Assembly (NCBI GenBank): GCA_028821605.1
Contig: JAPPFM010000056.1
Span: 209,346 to 273,345 of the forward strand
DNA length: 64,000 nt
From: Candidatus Poribacteria bacterium
GTDB taxonomy: Bacteria > Poribacteria > WGA-4E > WGA-3G
Reading direction: 5' to 3'
Shown: positions 1-10,677 of the stretch, piece by piece
Layout: each line of letters begins with the position of its first letter
How positions within the stretch are numbered: the stretch's first letter is position 1
Notes under the pieces: generated by a model
What the model saw: only the letters and a program-made list of their open reading frames with translations
Told to the model about the DNA's origin: nothing
Database searches by the model: none
Position numbers and translations under genes: made by a program

Positions 1-121
1 AGCATAAACTTTCAGTTTGTGCATAAGCCAGTACCATAAACTTTACGGAGACTTCAGACAGCTTGTAGCATAAACTTTCAGTTTGTGCATAAGCCAGTAC
101 CATAAACTTTACGGAGACTTC
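1..121. repeat. 55-bp tandem duplication carrying a hairpin and an SD
   Basis: Positions 1-55 and 67-121 are identical, offset by 66 bp. Each unit begins with an imperfect hairpin (AAACT-TTC-AGTTT), repeats CATAAACTTT twice, and ends in CGGAGACTTC. In the second unit CGGAGA serves as the ribosome binding site of the gene that starts at 124. The window edge cuts the left side, so further units may exist. Its origin is unknown. Confidence 0.85.
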
Positions 122-123
122 GG

Positions 124-879
124 ATGAAAAAGCCTGAACTTGTCATTGGATACCTTATGAATGGCGGAGCCTTCATCCAATCTATTAAGGTTCCAAAGTT
201 ACTGGATTGGATCAAACACTTAGAACCTGAAGAACTTATTGCGTTTTTTCAGGATTTACTCGAATTGGTAATACAAATTCCGAGGGGAAAGGAAGATGTT
301 GAGACACTTGAGGAATTTTTCGGCTATTGGCGAGAGCTTGCATTAGAATCAGATAGCGCACTTGGCGAAACTCACACCGATCCGGAAGAAGCAGAAATCG
401 CAGCGAAAGCCGCTGATATACTTTGGAAATCTCTCGCCGATTCCCTTAGCGCAGCCATGAGCACAGGCGAATTGGGAATCTTCAGAAATTATGATGATGA
501 GGAACACGAATTGACATCACCGTGGATAGATATTGTTGATGAGCAACCCGGACCAGCATTAACAACTCACGGCATTTACATGGACCCAGAGCCTGTTGAT
601 ATAACGGAAGCACAACGGGATGCGTACTTAGCTCTACCTATTTTAGAAATCCCATTCTCTGCCCGGATCCACAATTGTCTTGAAAGGGAAAATATCAAAA
701 CCGTCCGTGATCTCGTCATCAAAGAGGAGTGGGATCTGTTGGAATACAAGAACTTCGGACCCGGGTCGCTACTCAATGTCAAAAAACAACTCGCCTCCAG
801 GGGCCTTTACTTGGGAATGGACCTGGATGACGAGGACTATGAGGAAGATGAGGACATCTACGAAGAAGATACGGAATAA
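124..879 (+). CDS. Stand-alone protein with RNA polymerase alpha-CTD-like C-terminal domain
   Basis: The protein has 251 residues. Residues about 170-236 resemble the C-terminal domain of the RNA polymerase alpha subunit: R181-x-x-N184-C185-L matches the R265/N268/C269 region of E. coli RpoA, N210-F-G212-x-x-S215-L matches N294/G296/S299, and the segment ends in LASRGLYLGM, almost as in RpoA. K298 is replaced by Gly. The RpoA N-terminal assembly domain is absent; residues 1-165 are acidic, helical and unrecognised, and the tail is very acidic. The gene lies 30 bp upstream of a type IIG restriction-modification gene and is probably co-transcribed with it. By inference it is a DNA-binding or transcription-modulating partner of that enzyme. 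It is not a true rpoA, because no ribosomal protein genes are near. Confidence 0.75.
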   Translation: MKKPELVIGYLMNGGAFIQSIKVPKLLDWIKHLEPEELIAFFQDLLELVIQIPRGKEDVETLEEFFGYWRELALESDSALGETHTDPEEAEIAAKAADILWKSLADSLSAAMSTGELGIFRNYDDEEHELTSPWIDIVDEQPGPALTTHGIYMDPEPVDITEAQRDAYLALPILEIPFSARIHNCLERENIKTVRDLVIKEEWDLLEYKNFGPGSLLNVKKQLASRGLYLGMDLDDEDYEEDEDIYEEDTE

Positions 880-909
880 TCCTGTGAATATAATGAAAGG
901 GTAACATAA

Positions 910-3900
910 ATGCTGAATATCCGAGAAACACGCCAATACCTCAAAGAATCCGACTTTGAAAACCTCTTTACGCAAGTACTCGGTTGGGATAATCACACGC
1001 AAACCCTCAATGTCCGAATAGACGAAACCGAATATCAACTCACCGCCATCGCCGAAAAACGAGGAATGGTTGTTTTTGAATGTCCAGCAACCGAAGCCGA
1101 AGGACGCATCCCCGATTATGCCACCCGCCGCAAGATTCAAAAACAGGTCGCAAAATCCGTCCACGAACACTTCATCATCTACACCAACATTGAGAAAACC
1201 ACAGACATCTATCAGTGGGTCAAACGCGAGCGGGGAAAACCCGACGCATGCCGTGAACACCGGTATAACCGAAACGAACAATCCGGTGAATCCCTCATCC
1301 AGAAACTACAAACCCTCGCTTTTGCTTTTGAGGAAGAAGAGCAGCTGACGCTCTTTGAAGTAACCGGACGTGTCGGGACAGCCTTTTACGCTGAACGGGT
1401 TACCAAGAAGTTTTACGACCATTTCAAAAGGGAGCATACGGCATTTCTCAAATTCCTCAAAGGCATTCCTGATGAAGAGATGCAACGTTGGTACGTCTCC
1501 GTCATGCTCAACCGCCTGATGTTTATCTATTTCATTCAGAAGAAAAATTTCCTGAATAACGACAAGAACTATCTGTCTACCAAACTGTCAGAGAGCCAAG
1601 CGAACGGCACCAATCGATACTACAAAGACTTCCTCTGCCCACTCTTCTTTGAAGGATTCGCGAAGCCAGAAAACGAACGGAACAGAGAAGTAAAACGCTT
1701 ACTCGGTAAAATCCCCTATCTCAACGGTGGTATCTTTCAAAAACACCAACTTGAGACACTCCACGGCGAAAACATTGACATCCCCGATAAAGCGTTCGAG
1801 CAGCTTTTCAGTTTCTTTGAGCAGTACGACTGGCACCTCGACGACCGTCCACTTCGCAACGATAACGAGATTAACCCCGATGTGCTCGGCTACATCTTTG
1901 AAAAGTACATCAACCAGAAGCAGATGGGAGCATACTACACCAAAGAGGACATCACCGAGTACATCAGCAAAAATACCATCATTCCGTTCCTCTTTGACAA
2001 GGCACAAAAAGCATGTAAAATCGCCTTTGAAGGCGACACTTCCGTTTGGAAACTCCTACAAGACGATCCAGACCGCTACATCTACGATGCCGTCAAAAAA
2101 GGTGCTGAATTGGAAAATTTACCCCCTAATATTGCTGCTGGCATTGATGATGTCTCCAAACGCACCGACTGGAACACACCCGCAGATCCTGATTACGCCT
2201 TGCCGACAGAGATTTGGCGAGAGACCGTCGCTCGGCGACAGCGTTATGAAACCATCGGCGCTAAACTCGCAAACGGAGAGATAACTGACATCAACGATCT
2301 GATTACCTATAACCTCAATATCCGCCAATTCGCCCAAGATGTCATCGAAAATTGTGAGGGGCCCGAACTCCTCCGCGCTTTCTGGAAAGCCATCACCGAA
2401 GTGACGATCCTTGACCCGACCTGCGGCTCCGGTGCGTTCCTCTTTGCCGCTCTCAATATCCTCGAACCGCTCTATGAGGCATGTTTGGATAGGATGCAAG
2501 TCTTCCTTGACGAGTTGCAGCACGCTAATAAAAAAACACACGCTCTGAAATATGATGACTTTCGGAAAACGCTTGAACAGCACCCAAACCGCAAATATTT
2601 TATTCTCAAATCCATCATCATCAACAATCTCTACGGTGTGGACATCATGGACGAGGCTATCGAGATTTGCAAACTACGCCTCTTCCTCAAAATGGTAGCA
2701 CAGATTGACGATGTCCAACAGGTTGAACCGCTACCGGATATCGATTTTAACGTTCAAGCAGGGAATATCCTCGTCGGTTATGCGACTTATGACGAGGTAG
2801 AAAAGACGGTCACCGGTAAATTCGACTTTGACGATACCATGAAACGCATTGAAGAAAAGGCTGGAGATATTGACGTTTTTGTTAATATGTTTCGCGATCA
2901 ACAAACGAAAGAAAAGGATGATGAGAAACTCATTAAACCGGCAGACAAACAGAATTTGCAAAGTAGACTCCAAGAATTAGAAGACGAGCTCAACTTATAT
3001 CTTGCTGAAGAATACGGCGTGGATCCAAAGAAAAAATCTGCTTACCAAGACTGGTTAGTTTCACATAAGCCCTTCCACTGGTTCATCGCGTTTTACGGTA
3101 TTCTTAAGAACGGTGGGTTTGATGTGGTTATTGGCAACCCGCCGTATCTTGAATTAAGACAGGTTGACTATTTGCCTCCCAAGAACCTAGCTAGTTACGA
3201 AACTAAAGCGATTCATGCAATGTGCATAGATCGCAGTTCGCAGCTTTTAAGTCAACAAGGCTGCATGAGCATGATTGTCCCTTTAGCTTTAGTTTCCACA
3301 CAGCGAATGCAGAGCATACAAACCATCTTAGAAGGAAGTCGTAATGTTTGGTACACCAACTATTCATGGCGACCTGCTAAACTGTTTGATATGGTAAATC
3401 TTCTGTTAACTATTTTCATTGCAGCTCCTTCAACGGAAAATAAGACATTTTCTACCAACTGTCAGAAATGGACTTCCGATAATCGAGATTCACTAATGTA
3501 TAGCATTAGTTATGTAGAAATACCGCGACATAGAACAGCAGTTTGGGCACCAAAGTTGGGGATGGAAATTGAAACAACTTTACTTAAGAAATGTACCGAA
3601 GTCAAAACTGTTTTAAGGTTATTTATGTCGTCGCAAAGTAAACATCGGGTCTATCACCGTGTAGCGGGTGGGTTATATTGGAAAGTGTTTACAGATTTCC
3701 AACCGGCGTTTAGGGTTAATGGTAAATCAGGGAATTCTACAGCTGAGCGGTCATTTAGTGTTGAAACTTCCGAAATATTAAGACCTGTCATTGCAGTTTT
3801 GAGCAGTGATCTGTTTTGGTGGTGGTACACGATTACGACGGACTGCCGAAATCTTTCTGCATCTGATATTAAGAATTTTCCAATCCCTAAGTCCGCTCTT

Positions 3901-4146
3901 TATGATTCTCAACTCGCTGAACTCGGAGAGATGTACTTGGAGGATTTACAACGTAATAGCATAATGCAAGTTCGCGTTCAAAAACAGACTGGCCGAACTG
4001 AAACACAGTTATTCAAGATTCAAAAGTCCAAGCACATCATAGACCAAATTGACCGGGCCCTTGCCAAACACTATGGCTTCACCGACGAAGAATTAGACTT
4101 CATCACCAACTACGACATCAAATATCGTATGGGGTTGGGAAATTAA
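910..4146 (+). CDS. Type IIG restriction-modification enzyme (Eco57I-like class I DNA methyltransferase)
   Basis: The 1078 residues form a single-chain restriction-modification protein. The SAM-binding motif I is D502-P-T-C-G-S-G-A-F510, and the catalytic amino-methyltransferase motif IV is N743-P-P-Y746, so the product is probably N6-methyladenine. The first ~170 residues correspond to the usual N-terminal nuclease region, but I could not pin down a clean PD-(D/E)XK triad. The C-terminal third (about 750-1078) corresponds to target recognition and ends in a short, recognisable tail (YDIKYRMGLGN). Length is normal for the family. It follows the alpha-CTD-like gene by 30 bp. A decayed copy of its last 20 codons lies at 5912-5974. 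PglX of BREX is related, but no other BREX gene is present. Confidence 0.88.
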   Translation: MLNIRETRQYLKESDFENLFTQVLGWDNHTQTLNVRIDETEYQLTAIAEKRGMVVFECPATEAEGRIPDYATRRKIQKQVAKSVHEHFIIYTNIEKTTDIYQWVKRERGKPDACREHRYNRNEQSGESLIQKLQTLAFAFEEEEQLTLFEVTGRVGTAFYAERVTKKFYDHFKREHTAFLKFLKGIPDEEMQRWYVSVMLNRLMFIYFIQKKNFLNNDKNYLSTKLSESQANGTNRYYKDFLCPLFFEGFAKPENERNREVKRLLGKIPYLNGGIFQKHQLETLHGENIDIPDKAFEQLFSFFEQYDWHLDDRPLRNDNEINPDVLGYIFEKYINQKQMGAYYTKEDITEYISKNTIIPFLFDKAQKACKIAFEGDTSVWKLLQDDPDRYIYDAVKKGAELENLPPNIAAGIDDVSKRTDWNTPADPDYALPTEIWRETVARRQRYETIGAKLANGEITDINDLITYNLNIRQFAQDVIENCEGPELLRAFWKAITEVTILDPTCGSGAFLFAALNILEPLYEACLDRMQVFLDELQHANKKTHALKYDDFRKTLEQHPNRKYFILKSIIINNLYGVDIMDEAIEICKLRLFLKMVAQIDDVQQVEPLPDIDFNVQAGNILVGYATYDEVEKTVTGKFDFDDTMKRIEEKAGDIDVFVNMFRDQQTKEKDDEKLIKPADKQNLQSRLQELEDELNLYLAEEYGVDPKKKSAYQDWLVSHKPFHWFIAFYGILKNGGFDVVIGNPPYLELRQVDYLPPKNLASYETKAIHAMCIDRSSQLLSQQGCMSMIVPLALVSTQRMQSIQTILEGSRNVWYTNYSWRPAKLFDMVNLLLTIFIAAPSTENKTFSTNCQKWTSDNRDSLMYSISYVEIPRHRTAVWAPKLGMEIETTLLKKCTEVKTVLRLFMSSQSKHRVYHRVAGGLYWKVFTDFQPAFRVNGKSGNSTAERSFSVETSEILRPVIAVLSSDLFWWWYTITTDCRNLSASDIKNFPIPKSALYDSQLAELGEMYLEDLQRNSIMQVRVQKQTGRTETQLFKIQKSKHIIDQIDRALAKHYGFTDEELDFITNYDIKYRMGLGN

Positions 4147-4178
4147 GAGAAACAACTGAGCGCAAAAACAAAATAAAT

Positions 4179-4207
4179 TTGAAATTTCTTGCTGGGTGTG
4201 ATATACT
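4179..4207 (+). promoter_or_regulatory. Sigma70-like promoter for the TPR/AlbA_2 gene
   Basis: TTGAAA at 4179-4184 and TATACT at 4202-4207 are separated by 17 bp. It lies about 105 bp upstream of the start at 4312, so this gene is transcribed separately from the type IIG enzyme. Confidence 0.55.
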
Positions 4208-4311
4208 TAACATGAGTTGGTATAAGGAAATCGTATTTCGGAAGGTTTTCTGATTCGTCCTTTGAAATATTAGCAAAAACTGCTCATGACTTGTAAAACA
4301 TAGAGGATATT

Positions 4312-5871
4312 ATGGAGAATTTAGTCCGTAGAAAGATTATACTGTGTTTATTGGATTGTGCCCCTAAGCCAGCAAACGAAATTGCCGCTGAGATTGACGA
4401 ATCGTTGACATCGATAGAGGATCAACTGACAGCACTTGTCTCTGAAAATATTTGTGAAAAAGTAAACCAAAATGGGTCAAGTCAGTACAACGTCAAAAAA
4501 GACATTGAAATTTTTGCACAATTGACTAAGGAATTCCTCTCAGAGAAAGAAGAAAATAGGGAGCAGATAGAACAGTTCATTACTTCAGAGTATTACTTCA
4601 CCAGAATTGACAGTGGGTTGGTGGATCATGTCCTTCAACGCTTTCATCTGGATTCAATACATCAAACTGATGAGGAGAAAGAGAGCACTCGGAGGATACT
4701 ACTCGCGTCTCCTTCAGCTCTGTTTTTCGCTTTGCATAGTGAAACGAAACAGTTTCGTGAATCATGGGAACATCGGAATCAACTGAATCCTTCAGATGAA
4801 GATCGAAAACGGATAATAGAGATAGACCGCTCATTATTTATGACACCATTAGTAAAAATGCTTACTGATGATTTAAAAGATTTCACTTACCGCTCTCTTC
4901 ATGATAAGCTCGAAATTCGGATGACAAAGACAAGCATCCAAGTGAGTTTAGCAACCCCAAACGAACAGTATGTTGAGGCAATAGGCGGAGGGATTACTGC
5001 CTTTTGCAGATTAGATGAAGATTTACAGGAGAGTTTACGCCCAGGGCAATGGCTTACGTTTGTCAACCCAATGGATTTCTCCGATTATGGTTTAGCACTC
5101 CTTAATCTTGGGGAGTTCCAAAATGCTCTTGATAGTTTTGATAAAGCACTTAACGGAGTGCCAGATCCAAATCAAAAAGCAATGGTATTGAACAACAAGG
5201 GATGGGCTTTTCTCAGGTTGAGACAATATCAAAAAGCGATTGAGTGTTTTGAAGAAGGTATTACGCTTGATCCAGAAGGTGAAATTTCCGTATTACATGA
5301 AAATAAACAGATAGCTGAAGAATATTTAGTTCAGGCAACTGATGCTGATAACCTAACTGAACCGACCCAAATCCGTTTTGTTCAGGATCAACCCGTGCCT
5401 TTTGAGGAAACACGCTTCTATGAATTTAAGGAAATCAAGGGCAGAAATCCAGCTAATCGAATTACAAAAGACTCTGATGAGTACGCCGTTGCCTTTCTCA
5501 ATAGTGAAGGCGGACGTATTTTTTGGGGAGTAACGGATAGTGATAGAACCACGGTAGGCGTAACTCTCAATGACCAAAAGAGAGACGAAGTTCGACGTAT
5601 AGTGTCTGAAAAACTTGGGTCTATAGATCCGCCAGTCAGCGTTGAAGATTGGCAACTTGAATTGCATCAAGTCTATAACTTGCATGGAGAAGCCATTGAG
5701 GATTTGTGGGTTGTTGAACTTCTGATTCCATCCCTACAGAAAAGAGACGTTGTTTACACAAACAGCGGCGAGCTTTTCGTCAAAACTGAAGGGGGTAAAC
5801 AGAAATTATTAGGAGCGCAAGTAACAGAGTTTATCCGCAGTCGTTTTCAGAATGAGGCAGAAACGAGCTAA
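4312..5871 (+). CDS. Winged-helix / TPR / AlbA_2 (Schlafen-like) fusion protein
   Basis: The protein has 519 residues. Residues 1-65 look like a winged helix (RRKIILCLLDCAPKPANEIA...), residues about 240-335 hold two TPR units (YGLALLNLGEFQNALDSFDK and NNKGWAFLRLRQYQKAIECF), and residues about 370-510 form an AlbA_2/Schlafen-like domain (YEFKEIKGRNPANRI, then FLNSEGGRIFWGVTDS). AlbA_2 domains bind nucleic acid and often occur in regulators and in antiphage or toxin-like proteins. There is no signal peptide, so it should be cytosolic. It has its own promoter and lies inside the defence-like island. The three-domain order is unusual to me. Its role is unknown; nucleic-acid sensing is inference. 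Confidence 0.75.
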   Translation: MENLVRRKIILCLLDCAPKPANEIAAEIDESLTSIEDQLTALVSENICEKVNQNGSSQYNVKKDIEIFAQLTKEFLSEKEENREQIEQFITSEYYFTRIDSGLVDHVLQRFHLDSIHQTDEEKESTRRILLASPSALFFALHSETKQFRESWEHRNQLNPSDEDRKRIIEIDRSLFMTPLVKMLTDDLKDFTYRSLHDKLEIRMTKTSIQVSLATPNEQYVEAIGGGITAFCRLDEDLQESLRPGQWLTFVNPMDFSDYGLALLNLGEFQNALDSFDKALNGVPDPNQKAMVLNNKGWAFLRLRQYQKAIECFEEGITLDPEGEISVLHENKQIAEEYLVQATDADNLTEPTQIRFVQDQPVPFEETRFYEFKEIKGRNPANRITKDSDEYAVAFLNSEGGRIFWGVTDSDRTTVGVTLNDQKRDEVRRIVSEKLGSIDPPVSVEDWQLELHQVYNLHGEAIEDLWVVELLIPSLQKRDVVYTNSGELFVKTEGGKQKLLGAQVTEFIRSRFQNEAETS

Positions 5872-5911
5872 ACCCGTTTAGAAATCACATTGCTCCCTTG
5901 GTTCATTTTGA

Positions 5912-5974
5912 GAGGTGGAATTGAACTTCATCATCAACTGCGATGTCAAATATCGTATGGACTTGGGAAAATGA
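5912..5974 (+). pseudogene. Relic of the 3' end of a second type IIG gene
   Basis: Read in the frame ending at TGA 5972-5974, this stretch gives LNFIINCDVKYRMDLGK, which aligns with LDFITNYDIKYRMGLGN at the end of the intact type IIG gene (4146). By hand alignment 11 of 57 bases differ. Upstream of 5912 the likeness fades and the frame breaks. It marks the former end of another restriction-modification gene, or an imprecise recombination point. It also shows that an ATG at 5943 is not the true start of the next gene. Confidence 0.75.
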
Positions 5975-5999
5975 TACAGCCAATGGACAGGATTTCATC

Positions 6000-7628
6000 A
6001 TGACAAACACTGATAATGTTTCCTGTGAATTGCGAAAAATTGAAAAGGAAATAGACAACTATTACAACTCTAATCCTCTGCTCAAACTTCCATTTGCGAC
6101 TGCTGCATCGTATTTGCTACGGTCTGCTGAAGAATACATGCTAAATGAACAAATCAATGGAGTGTTCAGCACGCAAGGTCGCCATGCGTTAGGTAGTGAT
6201 TTCATTACTGAACTTGAGCATTCTATGTCTTGGCTCCACCGTGATTGTGAGCAAGGTGGAAAAATTCCCTTTGCTTATGATTCTGACCTTCACAAAGCAT
6301 CCAAGGATTTATTCGAGTTAGGACGTAAATATGATCTGATTGTTTTTGCATATACATGTGCAAGCGAAGGGATACTTGAATTAGAACTTCAAGGATCAAC
6401 TATTCAACCAACTGGAGATTTTTTTGCGAGTATAGAGTATGAAGCATACAATATCTTGGTTGACGCACATGAACCCGAAGAAGCACAATTCGATCTGAAT
6501 CCCGATGATTTCCCCACAACAGCGATCCTCGATTCTGTAAGGGTTCAAGGTGATAGATTTTGTTACGAATTGAACCCAAAGATGGTTACTGATATGAAAA
6601 AGTATTTGCAACCGTTATTTGATCGAATGTTTTTATTGCCAAGTGAATGGCAATTTAGTTGTTACATGTTGGGAGGCTTTCAGAAGGTTTTTGAAACTGT
6701 TTGTGCTATCGCACATATTCATTCAGCAGCACGAGTGAACGCAGCGCTTTTAGAGTGTCCAAATATGGCCTATCTTGATAGCATTTACGTACTAACCTAT
6801 GGTAAATTGATTAGGTGTGTTGCTAGATGTTCTGATATGTCACCTATAAAGGTAAAAAATGTTTTTGATGATTTGACCTATGGAGGCAGTGATATTAAAA
6901 GACCTATCCCTGCTTTGCAGCCTTTAATTAAACTGAATTCAAGGTACTATGCAATTGCCCCTCATATCTGGATTTGTTCCTCAGCGGAACGAAATTTCAC
7001 CGCACTGCTAAATAGAATGCAAAATCAAAATCAGAAGATTTACGAAAAATTTACCAATAAAAAAGAAGACCTTATGAAAAAACGTTTTACTACTGGTTTA
7101 TGTAATAAAGACTTTAAATTCATTTCGGGCAATATAACAAACCTAACGGATGTCGACCTTGCTATTGTAAATCATTCCGAAAAAGCGTGTTTACTTTTAG
7201 AACTCAAATGGTTCATTGCGCCGACAACAGCACATGAACGTATTAATAAATCTAAAGAGATTAAAAAGGGTGTCTCTCAGATCCTAAAACTGAAACAGGC
7301 TTTTGTAGAAAACCACAAACCGTTATTAGAAAAACTCAACATTGATACCAGCTATAGACTTGAGGGTGCTGTTGTTTCAGAAAACTGGATTGGATATGGC
7401 AATGTTCAGAATCCGGAAGTACCTGTCATCCGAGCTAACCATCTCATAGAAAAGTTAAAGACAATAGACAGTCTACGTGCAACGATGGAATGGTTGAAAG
7501 ACCGAGAGTATCTGCCTAAGGAAGGAGAACATTTTACGGTTCATAGACCTCCTACAACAATCGGTAATTGGACCATAAAGTGGTACGGGATTAAATCGCT
7601 CACTGAAAATGCGTTTTTTCCCGTGTGA
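6000..7628 (+). CDS. Putative PD-(D/E)XK nuclease, unrecognised family
   Basis: The protein has 542 residues counted from ATG 6000, which has GGACAGGA seven bases upstream; an in-frame ATG at 5943 lies within the type IIG relic and is rejected. D386 followed by E401-L-K403 (DLAIVNH...LLLELK) is the typical D-x(14)-ExK arrangement of a PD-(D/E)XK nuclease core on two beta strands. The N-terminal 380 residues are helical and not recognised. No membrane segment or signal peptide is seen. The gene sits between two AlbA_2 genes in the defence-like island and replaces whatever followed the lost type IIG gene. A nuclease effector is the best inference; the family cannot be named from sequence reading alone. 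Confidence 0.6.
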   Translation: MTNTDNVSCELRKIEKEIDNYYNSNPLLKLPFATAASYLLRSAEEYMLNEQINGVFSTQGRHALGSDFITELEHSMSWLHRDCEQGGKIPFAYDSDLHKASKDLFELGRKYDLIVFAYTCASEGILELELQGSTIQPTGDFFASIEYEAYNILVDAHEPEEAQFDLNPDDFPTTAILDSVRVQGDRFCYELNPKMVTDMKKYLQPLFDRMFLLPSEWQFSCYMLGGFQKVFETVCAIAHIHSAARVNAALLECPNMAYLDSIYVLTYGKLIRCVARCSDMSPIKVKNVFDDLTYGGSDIKRPIPALQPLIKLNSRYYAIAPHIWICSSAERNFTALLNRMQNQNQKIYEKFTNKKEDLMKKRFTTGLCNKDFKFISGNITNLTDVDLAIVNHSEKACLLLELKWFIAPTTAHERINKSKEIKKGVSQILKLKQAFVENHKPLLEKLNIDTSYRLEGAVVSENWIGYGNVQNPEVPVIRANHLIEKLKTIDSLRATMEWLKDREYLPKEGEHFTVHRPPTTIGNWTIKWYGIKSLTENAFFPV

Positions 7629-7633
7629 TACGG

Positions 7634-7662
7634 TTGCACTCACCATTAATTTCTGCTAAATT
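7634..7662 (+). promoter_or_regulatory. Sigma70-like promoter for the small gene and AlbA_2 regulator
   Basis: TTGCAC (7634-7639) and TAAATT (7657-7662) are separated by 17 bp, and the -10 is preceded by TGC. It lies just after the nuclease-like gene ends and 28 bp before the next start. Confidence 0.5.
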
Positions 7663-7689
7663 GTAGACAAAAGGAGCACTAAACAGTCT

Positions 7690-7896
7690 ATGAAAACTAC
7701 ACACTCAAAAAACACAACTAACGAAAAACAGAAGCAACGCCTCGCTTTTCCCGTCTATGATGAAGAGGATATCCTTGACTGGGATGCTGCCATCATTACG
7801 CCCCCGCCGCGGCCATCTGGCACAATACGAGTTAGGTTAATATACAAAGGACGTAGTAAACCAATTCCTGTTGAAAATCCTTGGGAAGAGGAATAG
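7690..7896 (+). CDS. Small basic/acidic protein upstream of an AlbA_2 regulator
   Basis: A 68-residue protein with a Lys/Gln-rich start (NTTNEKQKQRLAF), an acidic middle (YDEEDILDWDAA), a proline stretch (TPPPRPSG) and an acidic end (ENPWEEE). I do not recognise a family. It is preceded by its own promoter and ends 24 bp before the AlbA_2 gene, so the two are probably co-transcribed. The size and position would fit an antitoxin-like or accessory partner, but that is speculation. Confidence 0.5.
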   Translation: MKTTHSKNTTNEKQKQRLAFPVYDEEDILDWDAAIITPPPRPSGTIRVRLIYKGRSKPIPVENPWEEE

Positions 7897-7919
7897 ATAT
7901 TTGGATATTATCAAAAAAT

Positions 7920-9302
7920 ATGGAAACCATTGATCTCAAACAACGTATCCTGCAAGGCGAAAATACCACGACCGAATTCAAAGAGAACTTCGATCAGGAA
8001 GTGATTGAGACCGCCGCTGCATTTGCCAATACCGATGGCGGCACGATTCTCATTGGTGTATCCGATAAGCGAGAAATTAGAGGTATCACCATCGGGAAAG
8101 AGACGCTAAGAAACTGGTCAAACCAAATCCTTCAAGCGACTGAGCCGCGCGTAGTTATAGAAATTAAATCAGCCGCGGTAGAAGAGAAATCGGTGCTGTT
8201 GATACATATCGCGGAATCCTCTATAAAACCCGTTGCTGTTAGGGGAAGATGTTATAGAAGGGTTGGAAATAGCAACCGCGTCATGTCTCCACAAGAGATT
8301 GCCCAAATGCACCTTAACACCACTGGACAAACTTGGGACCAACTCATAGTTACACGTGCTGAAATTGATGATATAGATGAGAAAAAAGTTGAATGGTATC
8401 TGACCCGTCGAGAAACAATCCGGAATGTGTCTAAACCGCAAGATATGAGTATGGAAGCGTTTTTGAAGAACATTAATGGTATCAACGATGATGGAACACC
8501 AACCCACGCGGGACTTCTTTTTTTCAGTAAGCACCCCCAACGAAGATTCTTCCATAATGCCCAATTACGGGTTGTCAGATTCAAAGGAACATCCGTTATC
8601 CATCCGGTCATTGATCGGCTTGATTGCGGCGAGACACTCTGGGAAAACGTCGATACCGCCGAAGAATTTATAAGAAGAAACATCCGCCTTCTCAGTTTTC
8701 GGACCTCAAGGAGTTTCCAACGAGACGATAAATTTGAATACCCGATTAATGCACTACGGGAGGCGATTATCAACGCCTTGATTCACCGCAGTTATCAAGA
8801 GACTGCTGATGTCAGGGTCTTCATATTTGATAATCGCGTTGAGGTTATCAATCCTGGCACTTTTCCAGAAGGCGTTAGCCCAGATGAACCGACTCACAAA
8901 CCGGTAAACCCTACTTTAAGTCAATTCATGTTTGATGTTGGTTTCATTGAACGGTACGGTGCCGGTATCAGGATGATGCAAAGATTATGCAAGGAGTGGG
9001 GAAACAAGGTACCTCGCTATAATTTTCATCCACTTGAAACCAAAATCATCTTTGATTCCCCGATCCAAGAGAGCACTTTTGTAGAGATTGATGATATTTC
9101 GGAACAATTGAACGAGCGTCAAAAGAACGCTTTTTCCTATGTGCAAAGACACGGACAAATTGCGACAAAGGAATATGTAGCGATCAACAATATCTCGCGC
9201 AAGATTGCCTATCAGGAACTAAAGGATATGACAGATAAAGGGTTATTGTCCATGGCAGGAAAAGGTAGAGGAAGCCGATACGTCCGAAAAGTAAGCGATT
9301 AG
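7920..9302 (+). CDS. AlbA_2 / ATP-binding transcriptional regulator (COG2865-type)
   Basis: A protein of 460 residues from ATG 7920. The N-terminal 120 residues are an AlbA_2 domain (ENTTTEFKENFDQ, then AFANTDGGTILIGVSD), followed by a linker and a HATPase_c_4-like segment (ALREAIINALIHRSY at about 280 and GFIERYGAGIRMMQRL at about 350), and a C-terminal winged helix (ATKEYVAINNISRKIAYQEL). This is the usual layout of COG2865 regulators, found across bacteria and often beside mobile or defence genes. An in-frame upstream codon at 7881 would overlap the 68-residue gene; ATG 7920 matches the family start. The last four codons (VSD plus stop) are the first unit of a 12-bp tandem repeat. Confidence 0.8.
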   Translation: METIDLKQRILQGENTTTEFKENFDQEVIETAAAFANTDGGTILIGVSDKREIRGITIGKETLRNWSNQILQATEPRVVIEIKSAAVEEKSVLLIHIAESSIKPVAVRGRCYRRVGNSNRVMSPQEIAQMHLNTTGQTWDQLIVTRAEIDDIDEKKVEWYLTRRETIRNVSKPQDMSMEAFLKNINGINDDGTPTHAGLLFFSKHPQRRFFHNAQLRVVRFKGTSVIHPVIDRLDCGETLWENVDTAEEFIRRNIRLLSFRTSRSFQRDDKFEYPINALREAIINALIHRSYQETADVRVFIFDNRVEVINPGTFPEGVSPDEPTHKPVNPTLSQFMFDVGFIERYGAGIRMMQRLCKEWGNKVPRYNFHPLETKIIFDSPIQESTFVEIDDISEQLNERQKNAFSYVQRHGQIATKEYVAINNISRKIAYQELKDMTDKGLLSMAGKGRGSRYVRKVSD

Positions 9303-9338
9303 GTAAGCGATTAGGTAAGCGATTAGGTGAACGATTAA
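9291..9338 (+). repeat. Four 12-bp tandem units, each ending in an in-frame stop
   Basis: The unit GTAAGCGATTAG occurs three times (9291-9326), followed by a variant GTGAACGATTAA (9327-9338). All units are in the frame of the AlbA_2 gene, reading Val-Ser-Asp-stop three times, then Val-Asn-Asp-stop. The first unit supplies the real stop codon. Confidence 0.9.
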
Positions 9339-9357
9339 CGCAAGGAGCAGCACCCAC

Positions 9358-10677
9358 ATGTCAAGGGGAAAAGGCGAAGGTATCACCAAGATAGCAGTCA
9401 AGGGTTTCAAGTCGATAGTAGAAGAATGTGAGATTGACATCCGTCCGTTGACAATCCTTGCTGGTGCGAACAGTTCCGGGAAATCCAGTATCATGCAACC
9501 ACTCCTAATGCTAAAGCAGACGCTGGAGGCACCTTATGATCCGGGGGCACTGTTGATTGATGGCCCAAACGTTCAGTTTACTAAAGCATCACAATTTTTG
9601 TCCACGTTGGTCGGGGAGAAGGGGGCAGACCGTTTTCACATTCGGATCAGCACGAGTATATCTAATTTTTCTCACTCAGTGGAGATAATTTTCGGAAAGG
9701 GATTGAGCGGGATTGAAATTGTTGAAATGACAAGCAAAGGAAAATCAGATGATGACCCACCGGTGTTTCCTGAACATCTTACTTTGTATCCTGAGATGTC
9801 TCTTGAAGAAATCAAGGCACTGACGGATCAATATACAATTTTTAGAATTGCGGGTGTTAATGGGGTGAAGCGTTCACGCTGTTTTTTGCGTTTGGTATCT
9901 CAAGGTGGTTCTAAGTCTTTAAACCTCGACACTACTGTTAAACTCATCAGTGACCCTGAATCCGATATTCTCGAAACCATTTACCTCCCTGGATTACGCG
10001 ATGGTCCAGAACGCATTGACAATTTGACTAGCACCGGGACGTTATATCCTGGTGGATTTGAAAATTACGTTGCGAGTCTCATTCATGAATGGCAGGAGAC
10101 GAAAGATAAACGCTTGAAGATGGTAACTGATGCGCTCTATACGCTTGAATTAACAGGAAAAGTCGGTGCCCAAAAAGTTGGCGATGTTGGTATTGAAGTT
10201 CAAGTTGGTCGTCTCCCACGCGGCAACACCGACGAGACGGATATGGTCAACATCACCGATGTAGGACTCGGTGTGTCTCAAGTTTTACCCGTTTTAGTCG
10301 CCGTGATTGTTGCGGAACCCGGGCAGCTCGTCTATATCGAACAGCCCGAGCTGCATCTCCACCCTCGCGCCCAAATTGCATTAGCGCGAGTGCTGGCAGA
10401 TGCTGCGAAACGTGGGGTCCGCGTCGTTGCCGAAACGCACAGTTCGCTGCTGCTTTTGGCGGTTCAAACGCTTGTTGCTGAAGGAGACCTTCCGCCGGAA
10501 TTAGTCAAACTGCACTGGTTCACACGCCGAGAAGATGGGGTAACTGAAGTTAACAGTGCCGATCTGGATGAGGCGGGAGCTTATGGAGAGTGGCCAGAAG
10601 ATTTTGATGATGTAGACCTCAAAGCACAAAGTCGTTACATAAAAGCAGCGCAGTCGCGTTTTGTTGAAGGGACATAG
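9358..10677 (+). CDS. AAA/ABC-type ATPase, DUF3696-like (OLD/RecF-like fold)
   Basis: A protein of 439 residues. The Walker A motif is GANSSGKSS (about 36-44, counting from ATG 9358), the signature and Walker B region is LVYIEQPELHLHPRAQIALA (about 323-342), and the H-loop is ETHSS (about 361-365). The C-terminal part (WFTRREDG...YGEWPEDF) is like DUF3696. No TOPRIM domain follows, unlike OLD nucleases. The start has AAGGAG 11 bases upstream. The next gene begins one base after the stop, so the two are translated together. Such ATPases pair with nucleases in several antiphage systems (Septu, PARIS, Gabija), which suggests a sensor role here. Confidence 0.8.
   Translation: MSRGKGEGITKIAVKGFKSIVEECEIDIRPLTILAGANSSGKSSIMQPLLMLKQTLEAPYDPGALLIDGPNVQFTKASQFLSTLVGEKGADRFHIRISTSISNFSHSVEIIFGKGLSGIEIVEMTSKGKSDDDPPVFPEHLTLYPEMSLEEIKALTDQYTIFRIAGVNGVKRSRCFLRLVSQGGSKSLNLDTTVKLISDPESDILETIYLPGLRDGPERIDNLTSTGTLYPGGFENYVASLIHEWQETKDKRLKMVTDALYTLELTGKVGAQKVGDVGIEVQVGRLPRGNTDETDMVNITDVGLGVSQVLPVLVAVIVAEPGQLVYIEQPELHLHPRAQIALARVLADAAKRGVRVVAETHSSLLLLAVQTLVAEGDLPPELVKLHWFTRREDGVTEVNSADLDEAGAYGEWPEDFDDVDLKAQSRYIKAAQSRFVEGT

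Follow-up and report, generated by a model that had tools for sequence, protein, structure and literature searches.

What is the DNA-binding domain of RNA polymerase doing in a small gene next to a restriction gene? The question is raised by the beginning of a 64,000-nucleotide stretch of DNA (the window) from a Candidatus Poribacteria bacterium (contig JAPPFM010000056.1, positions 209,346 to 273,345 of the forward strand), in which a gene at positions 124-879 encodes a protein with a copy of the C-terminal domain of the RNA polymerase alpha subunit (alpha-CTD) and is followed by the gene of a 'type IIG'-like methyltransferase. An initial annotation had described this protein as an alpha-CTD joined to an unknown acidic N-terminal part, and had suggested that it could be a control protein for the neighbouring enzyme, binding DNA in place of the polymerase subunit. 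The analysis reported here points to a fusion of a ParE-type antitoxin with the alpha-CTD of the host, which might be an antitoxin turned into a DNA-binding regulator of its defence island, a reading to which we assign a probability of about 0.42.

Architecture of the fusion gene

The window protein was used to search 60 related genomes. The data are throughout metagenome-assembled genomes (MAGs), part of them fragmented; G000 is the genome of the window, and the other G numbers are its relatives. The parts of the gene are as follows.

124..879, + strand: antitoxin-alpha-CTD fusion gene, 251 aa (open frame of 251 codons)
124..357, + strand: antitoxin-like domain at the N-terminus (residues 1-78); its homologues are stand-alone antitoxins of 109 aa whose genes overlap that of a ParE toxin at other loci
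358..597, + strand: acidic middle, residues 79-158, equivalent of the antitoxin's toxin-facing tail, mostly degenerate in the window allele
598..816, + strand: copy of the RNA polymerase alpha-CTD (residues 159-231), swapped between alleles
817..876, + strand: acidic C-terminal tail, residues 232-251

The search returned three classes of matches: RpoA, reached solely through the alpha-CTD; relatives covering the full length; and short frames that align with residues 1-78. The same architecture is found in 14 copies from independent MAGs, which rules out a full-RpoA fusion or an assembly chimera, and the frame is open in all of them (one copy being cut by a contig end). Among the genomes searched, the fusion is restricted to the genus of the window, and it is duplicated in G009 and G030. 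An origin in phages or plasmids was rejected, since no relative of the N-terminal part was found in viral contigs, and the phage and plasmid matches to the fusion protein were nearly all RpoA-like and confined to the alpha-CTD. No earlier description of an antitoxin-alpha-CTD fusion was found in the open-licence literature.

Residues 164-224 match the Pfam family RNA_pol_A_CTD (PF03118) with 59.1 bits (E 3.6e-16, cut-off 23.8), and the alpha-CTD is the only RpoA part matched in the protein, with no N-terminal domain of the alpha subunit (alpha-NTD). In the AlphaFold model most of this region scores above 88 in the predicted local distance difference test (pLDDT), and its superposition by Foldseek on E. 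coli alpha-CTD structures gives 0.6-1.2 Å over ~67-71 residues. A generic helix-hairpin-helix, the alternative that would have undone the original assignment, is excluded by the profile score together with this fold match. The five residues on which that assignment had been based are also in place, R181, N184, C185, G212 and S215 of the window protein corresponding to R265, N268, C269, G296 and S299 of E. coli. Across the 14 fusion alpha-CTDs, R265 is invariant, G296 and S/T299 are likewise found in 14/14, and N268 and C269 in 13/14 each. The contact with sigma region 4 follows the opposite course: E261 is lost in 13 of the 14 fusions, with P177 at this position in the window protein, whereas an E or D is found there in 26/26 RpoA sequences.

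An antitoxin-like N-terminal part

Residues 1-78 are ~44-54% identical to 109-aa antitoxin proteins of related genomes. These short relatives, mostly of 109-137 aa, end in a tail with the pattern SEPDVLADIAEAEQELDAGGGKPWSQIKKEIGL. In the majority of cases their gene is followed, with an overlap of 4 bases or longer, by one encoding a protein of 93-103 aa that matches ParE_toxin (PF05016; 29.4 bits at locus L149, above the curated cut-off, and 24.1 bits at L088, barely above it). Because these homologous short proteins overlap the gene of a ParE_toxin-matching protein, the N-terminal part of the fusion is, by homology, antitoxin-like, and comes from a 109-aa antitoxin family of sponge Poribacteria. 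The previously unknown part of the protein is thereby accounted for. Its description as acidic has to be moved along the chain, the highest acidity lying at residues 79-160 and in the C-terminal tail (231-251); within the middle part, pLDDT falls below 50 at residues 107-151. The antitoxin itself was modelled with a pLDDT of 79. In a second genus of the same bacterial family these antitoxins are always found without an alpha-CTD, and they are also present in three sponge Latescibacterota MAGs.

The toxin, on the other hand, is missing from the fusion loci, since tblastn with two toxins revealed no toxin or toxin remnant beside any fusion gene. It could be proposed that the fusion works as a solitary antitoxin with an anti-addiction role, still neutralising in trans the ParE toxins that are produced elsewhere in the genus, and with the alpha-CTD serving for stabilisation or autoregulation. 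Pairs of this family are indeed widespread in the genus, and the fusion proteins of several genomes retain a recognisable toxin-facing tail (SERDVLADILEAEQELDSPW) ahead of the alpha-CTD, the middle part of such alleles preserving SERDVLADI.EAEQELDSPW. However, this tail is degenerate in the window allele and its close relatives, and the toxins of the window genome itself are damaged, the one after the first antitoxin on contig C56 being a stub of 20-30 residues and the one after the C36 antitoxin being interrupted, so that such a role is regarded as quite unlikely.

Origin and evolution of the alpha-CTD copy

In a maximum-likelihood tree built on 70 columns from the 14 fusion alpha-CTDs, 11 distinct RpoA sequences of the genus and 15 RpoA of other families, the fusion domains form a single clade (100/99) that groups with the RpoA of the genus (100/100), the finer forks being unresolved. 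Both groups share residues that are uncommon or absent in the RpoA of other families (N274, A254, Y292 and others), and these results support the derivation of the alpha-CTD copy from the 3' end of the genus's own rpoA, which in the window genome is a separate gene on another contig (G000:C11). Homology, synteny and the tree together support the descent of the fusion gene from a ParE-type antitoxin that lost its toxin and was joined to an alpha-CTD. A readable series of states exists, from antitoxin with toxin, through antitoxin with a toxin stub and antitoxin alone, to antitoxin with alpha-CTD.

The copy has evolved much faster than its source. In pairwise counts on short segments subject to recombination, the ratio of nonsynonymous to synonymous substitutions (dN/dS) was ~0.47 for the fusion alpha-CTD versus 0.02 for that of RpoA (~20-fold), and the residues of the DNA face have been retained despite this rate. 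The change is also unevenly distributed. Compared as DNA, the window gene and its relative in G008 share 97% identity along the N-terminal part and 77% along the alpha-CTD, where 50 of their 67 differences fall (Fisher 3e-16), and similarity returns in the tail and just beyond the stop codon; between G008 and G027 the pattern is the reverse. On account of these opposite patterns, the alpha-CTD is, judging from the alleles compared, an internal cassette exchanged between them.

A domain taken from the host's own RpoA, with a high dN/dS, with allelic exchange limited to it, and located in a defence island, could also be a decoy or sensor. In this proposal, which ranks as the strongest rival, the alpha-CTD would bait phage proteins that modify, bind or cut the polymerase alpha-CTD, and the antitoxin-like part would signal to the island. 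Phages do attack RNA polymerase alpha, and the R265 that is invariant in the fusions is presumably the T4 ADP-ribosylation site on this subunit. Phage Rac severs the alpha linker (PMC7552054), and T4 Alt, ModA and ModB ADP-ribosylate alpha (cited in PMC7552054). Nevertheless, a bait would be expected to resemble the real domain closely, whereas the window copy shares no more than 55-60% identity with the RpoA alpha-CTDs of the genus; the fusion bears no effector and has lost its toxin; and the fast change may reflect nothing but relaxed constraint. A decoy is therefore considered doubtful, and its integrated form, in which a diversified, cassette-exchanged copy of the host alpha-CTD would detect phage attackers of RNA polymerase and switch the surrounding island, is held to be unlikely.

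A putative inherited promoter

Most antitoxin start codons are preceded, 33-39 bp upstream, by a putative promoter recognised from its conservation, which is composed of an A-tract, TTGAAC, a spacer of 17 bp and TATAAT. Nine of the 14 fusions have the same promoter 38-43 bp ahead of the gene, and with the displaced one of the window gene it is kept by 10/14 (in this count the 14 copies include G083 in place of G027). In the window genome, a repeat-bearing insertion and an assembly gap separate promoter and gene. The sequence directly ahead of the gene is the following.

1..122, no strand: two direct repeats of 66 bp, both containing the palindrome GCATAAACTTTCAGTTTGTGC (at 2-22 and at 68-88), just ahead of the fusion gene

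An assembly gap (Ns), outside the window, precedes these repeats. The palindrome was considered as a dedicated operator and found unsupported, being scattered at 14 sites of the genome (up to 2 mismatches) and missing before most relatives. Another candidate, a palindromic operator over the -10 box (ATACA..TGTAT), is found only in some genes and was not relied on. An Rfam scan of window positions 1-10000 matched no RNA element.

The displaced promoter could also be expected if the gene were a relic, that is, a decaying toxin-antitoxin remnant joined in frame by chance to the 3' end of rpoA and devoid of present function. Such a relic would agree with the dN/dS of the whole protein (0.47-0.65, versus 0.10-0.13 in intact antitoxins) and with the company of visibly broken toxin, IIG and helicase genes in these islands. 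However, 14/14 copies are open (counting the one cut by a contig end), dN/dS is below 1, R265, N268, C269 and G296 are almost invariant while neighbouring residues change, and the gene is kept in several alleles and in duplicate in two genomes, all of which makes decay without function rather improbable.

The defence island

Upstream of the fusion lies the gene of a 1132-aa HKD/PLD and SNF2 helicase, which ends at about window position -249. Downstream, the following genes are found.

910..4146, + strand: DNA N6-adenine methyltransferase, 'type IIG'-like, Eco57I family, 1078 aa (PDLC03628, DPTCGSGA, NPPY)
4312..5871, + strand: Schlafen AlbA_2 and TPR protein, which succeeds the methyltransferase gene in several relatives
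5943..7628, + strand: 561-aa protein without Pfam match, which recurs after the methyltransferase gene
7881..9302, + strand: Schlafen AlbA_2 and HATPase_c_4 protein of the same defence island

The 561-aa protein shows by eye a PD-(D/E)XK-like stretch (VDLAIVNHSEKACLLLELKW), and its gene follows that of the methyltransferase in G010, G035 and G083.

The fusion frame ends at 879 and the next gene starts at 910, so that the reported spacing of 30 bp is correct. As for the 'type IIG' label given to the product of this second gene, it stands at the level of the profile match (PADLOC REase_MTase_IIG, 1037 bits; Eco57I, 80.7 bits) and of the N6-adenine methyltransferase motifs. A clear ExK nuclease motif was not found in the N-terminus, where the window protein has E-x-C, and the gene is consistently paired with that of the HKD-SNF2 helicase. 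The restriction partner of the methyltransferase is probably this helicase gene, ending just outside the window, whose product matches PADLOC C3a139 (HKD+Snf2), is DrmD-like, and has HxK and GSSN motifs that recur in at least 90% of 25 sequences. The two proteins would make up a restriction system whose nuclease resides in the helicase and which stands close to the Type-2 BREX-related systems.

At the 21 loci listed with a pair of helicase and methyltransferase genes, the slot that separates the two was compared. It holds the fusion in three (G000, G007 and G083), an antitoxin with its ParE toxin in five, an antitoxin with the toxin broken or gone in six, and no recognisable gene in another six. 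At the remaining locus (G003, L096:7422-7802) a PemK/MazF-type toxin is found, which indicates that the slot takes in unrelated toxin-antitoxin genes.

The position of the fusion in those three genomes could suggest an accessory subunit of the restriction system, involved in DNA targeting or methyltransferase dosing and not in transcription. This is the least probable of the proposals, and a highly improbable one: elsewhere the slot is occupied by toxin-antitoxin pairs, by the PemK toxin or by no recognisable gene, and the fusion persists where helicase and methyltransferase genes are absent. In G009 (L071:8767-9699) and G030 (L073:9105-9995), remnants of the helicase and of the methyltransferase gene, respectively, adjoin the fusion genes, which suggests that these islands are losing the restriction pair and keeping the fusion gene.

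Proposed role of the fusion

The data support the ancestry and architecture of the fusion, the absence of the toxin, the retained promoter, the DNA-face residues, the cassette exchange and the location in the island. What we infer for the protein is binding to AT-rich promoter DNA and regulation of the island. In this reading, a ParE-type antitoxin of a Poribacteria defence island, often sited between the HKD-SNF2 helicase and methyltransferase genes, lost its toxin, and its gene was joined to the copied 3' end of the host rpoA. The antitoxin-like part would probably self-associate, and the alpha-CTD would grip AT-rich DNA, for example the A-tract that borders the -35 box of the inherited promoter on the upstream side. 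The product would tune the transcription of its own gene and, where the methyltransferase gene comes next, of that gene too. Such regulation would proceed without the usual sigma contact, because E261 has been lost, and the exchange of alpha-CTD cassettes between alleles could alter the binding preference.

Several observations weigh against this regulator. A domain that reads one constant operator would hardly be expected to change so rapidly or to be exchanged as a cassette. Two further DNA-contact residues are poorly kept among the fusions, N294 in 3/14 and K298 in 1/14 (the window allele retains N210 at the first position and has G214 at the second). The N-terminal fold found no match in the PDB better than E 0.7, and none by profile, and self-association is assumed. 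In the window genome the ancestral promoter, though intact, is found 284 bp ahead of the gene (window positions -189 to -161). Finally, the fusion directly precedes the methyltransferase gene in only four genomes (G000, G007, G030 and G083), in one of which, G030, it immediately precedes a methyltransferase fragment and no helicase is present. It is upstream of the helicase in G010 and G012, and ~10 kb from the IIG gene in G013. In G008, G032 and G016, at the same chromosomal place, it stands beside Schlafen-AlbA/AAA defence genes without helicase and methyltransferase, and in G009 beside Schlafen/AAA genes with a helicase remnant and no IIG gene.

With a placement so variable, the association of the fusion is closer with the island than with the 'type IIG' gene as such. 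The linkage that had been anticipated with type IIG genes survives in a broader form, nearly all the fusion copies examined lying within a helicase/methyltransferase/Schlafen/AAA island. In the same way, the idea of a control protein gains from an alpha-CTD without alpha-NTD, from much of the DNA-contact face being kept, from descent from the RpoA of the genus and from the island, and loses from the limited adjacency to IIG genes; and with an antitoxin as N-terminal part, the control device becomes a repurposed antitoxin. A regulator and a decoy both fit an invariant R265 in a fast-changing, shuffled remainder, and sequence separates neither from the other. The distance from RpoA is unfavourable to a simple decoy, as the shuffling is to a plain repressor of a single operator.

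The case shows how a toxin-antitoxin module of a restriction island can lose its toxin and gain the DNA-binding part of the host RNA polymerase, and the fusion offers a test of whether the alpha-CTD can act in phage defence as a transferable module, for DNA binding or as bait.

Other alpha-CTD proteins in the phylum

Other uses of this domain outside the ordinary RpoA were also observed. In G045 (contig C122, L115:8635-11265), a second complete RpoA (alpha-NTD and alpha-CTD) is found in one 876-aa frame with an extension of ~550 aa that has a PD-(D/E)XK-like motif (YDLDVDGLHIDVKNSR), the ordinary rpoA being located elsewhere in the genome. This extension exists without RpoA in G036, G039, G041, G043 and another G045 contig. 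In addition, proteins of ~600-850 aa (L168:5719-7864, L169, L170, L171, L172 and L173) bear 1-4 N-terminal copies of the alpha-CTD, with a sigma-70 region 4 domain in the members scanned, constituting another non-RpoA use of the alpha-CTD in the phylum.

Comparison with known systems

The fusion resembles the RpoA alpha-CTD (PF03118) in fold, 265-determinant residues, genus-specific residues and acidic tail, and differs from it by the lack of an alpha-NTD, the loss of E261, a far faster evolution and allelic mosaicism. An alpha-CTD without alpha-NTD is also the feature of the short stand-alone proteins of NCBIfam PRK07758 (NF005841); however, the window protein matches this family weakly (18.7 bits versus a cut-off of 115), and PRK07758 has no antitoxin part. 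With ParE/RelE-type type II toxin-antitoxin modules, the fusion shares the promoter arrangement and an N-terminal part whose homologues are antitoxins encoded in overlap with a ParE-like toxin, whereas the window gene has an alpha-CTD instead of a toxin, and the antitoxin reaches no Pfam family above cut-off.

The C-proteins of restriction-modification systems are small helix-turn-helix proteins. Like their genes, the fusion gene is small, lies directly upstream of a restriction or modification gene and possibly encodes a regulator. Scans of the window protein against Pfam, NCBIfam and PADLOC, however, matched no helix-turn-helix family, and this protein would bind DNA through its alpha-CTD.

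With regard to the island, class 1 DISARM combines an HKD-endoDNase/Swi2-Snf2 helicase with an N6-adenine methyltransferase. Island proteins give partial matches to the PADLOC DISARM models DrmD and DrmMI, and none of DUF499, DUF3780, DrmA or DrmB was found among the neighbouring proteins scanned. In Type-2 BREX-related systems, an HKD-endoDNase and a Swi2/Snf2 helicase are likewise found together with an N6-adenine methyltransferase (PMC12839542). The island is like both kinds of system in having an HKD nuclease-SNF2 helicase and an N6 methyltransferase, and is distinguished from them by the toxin-antitoxin genes held in the slot between the two.

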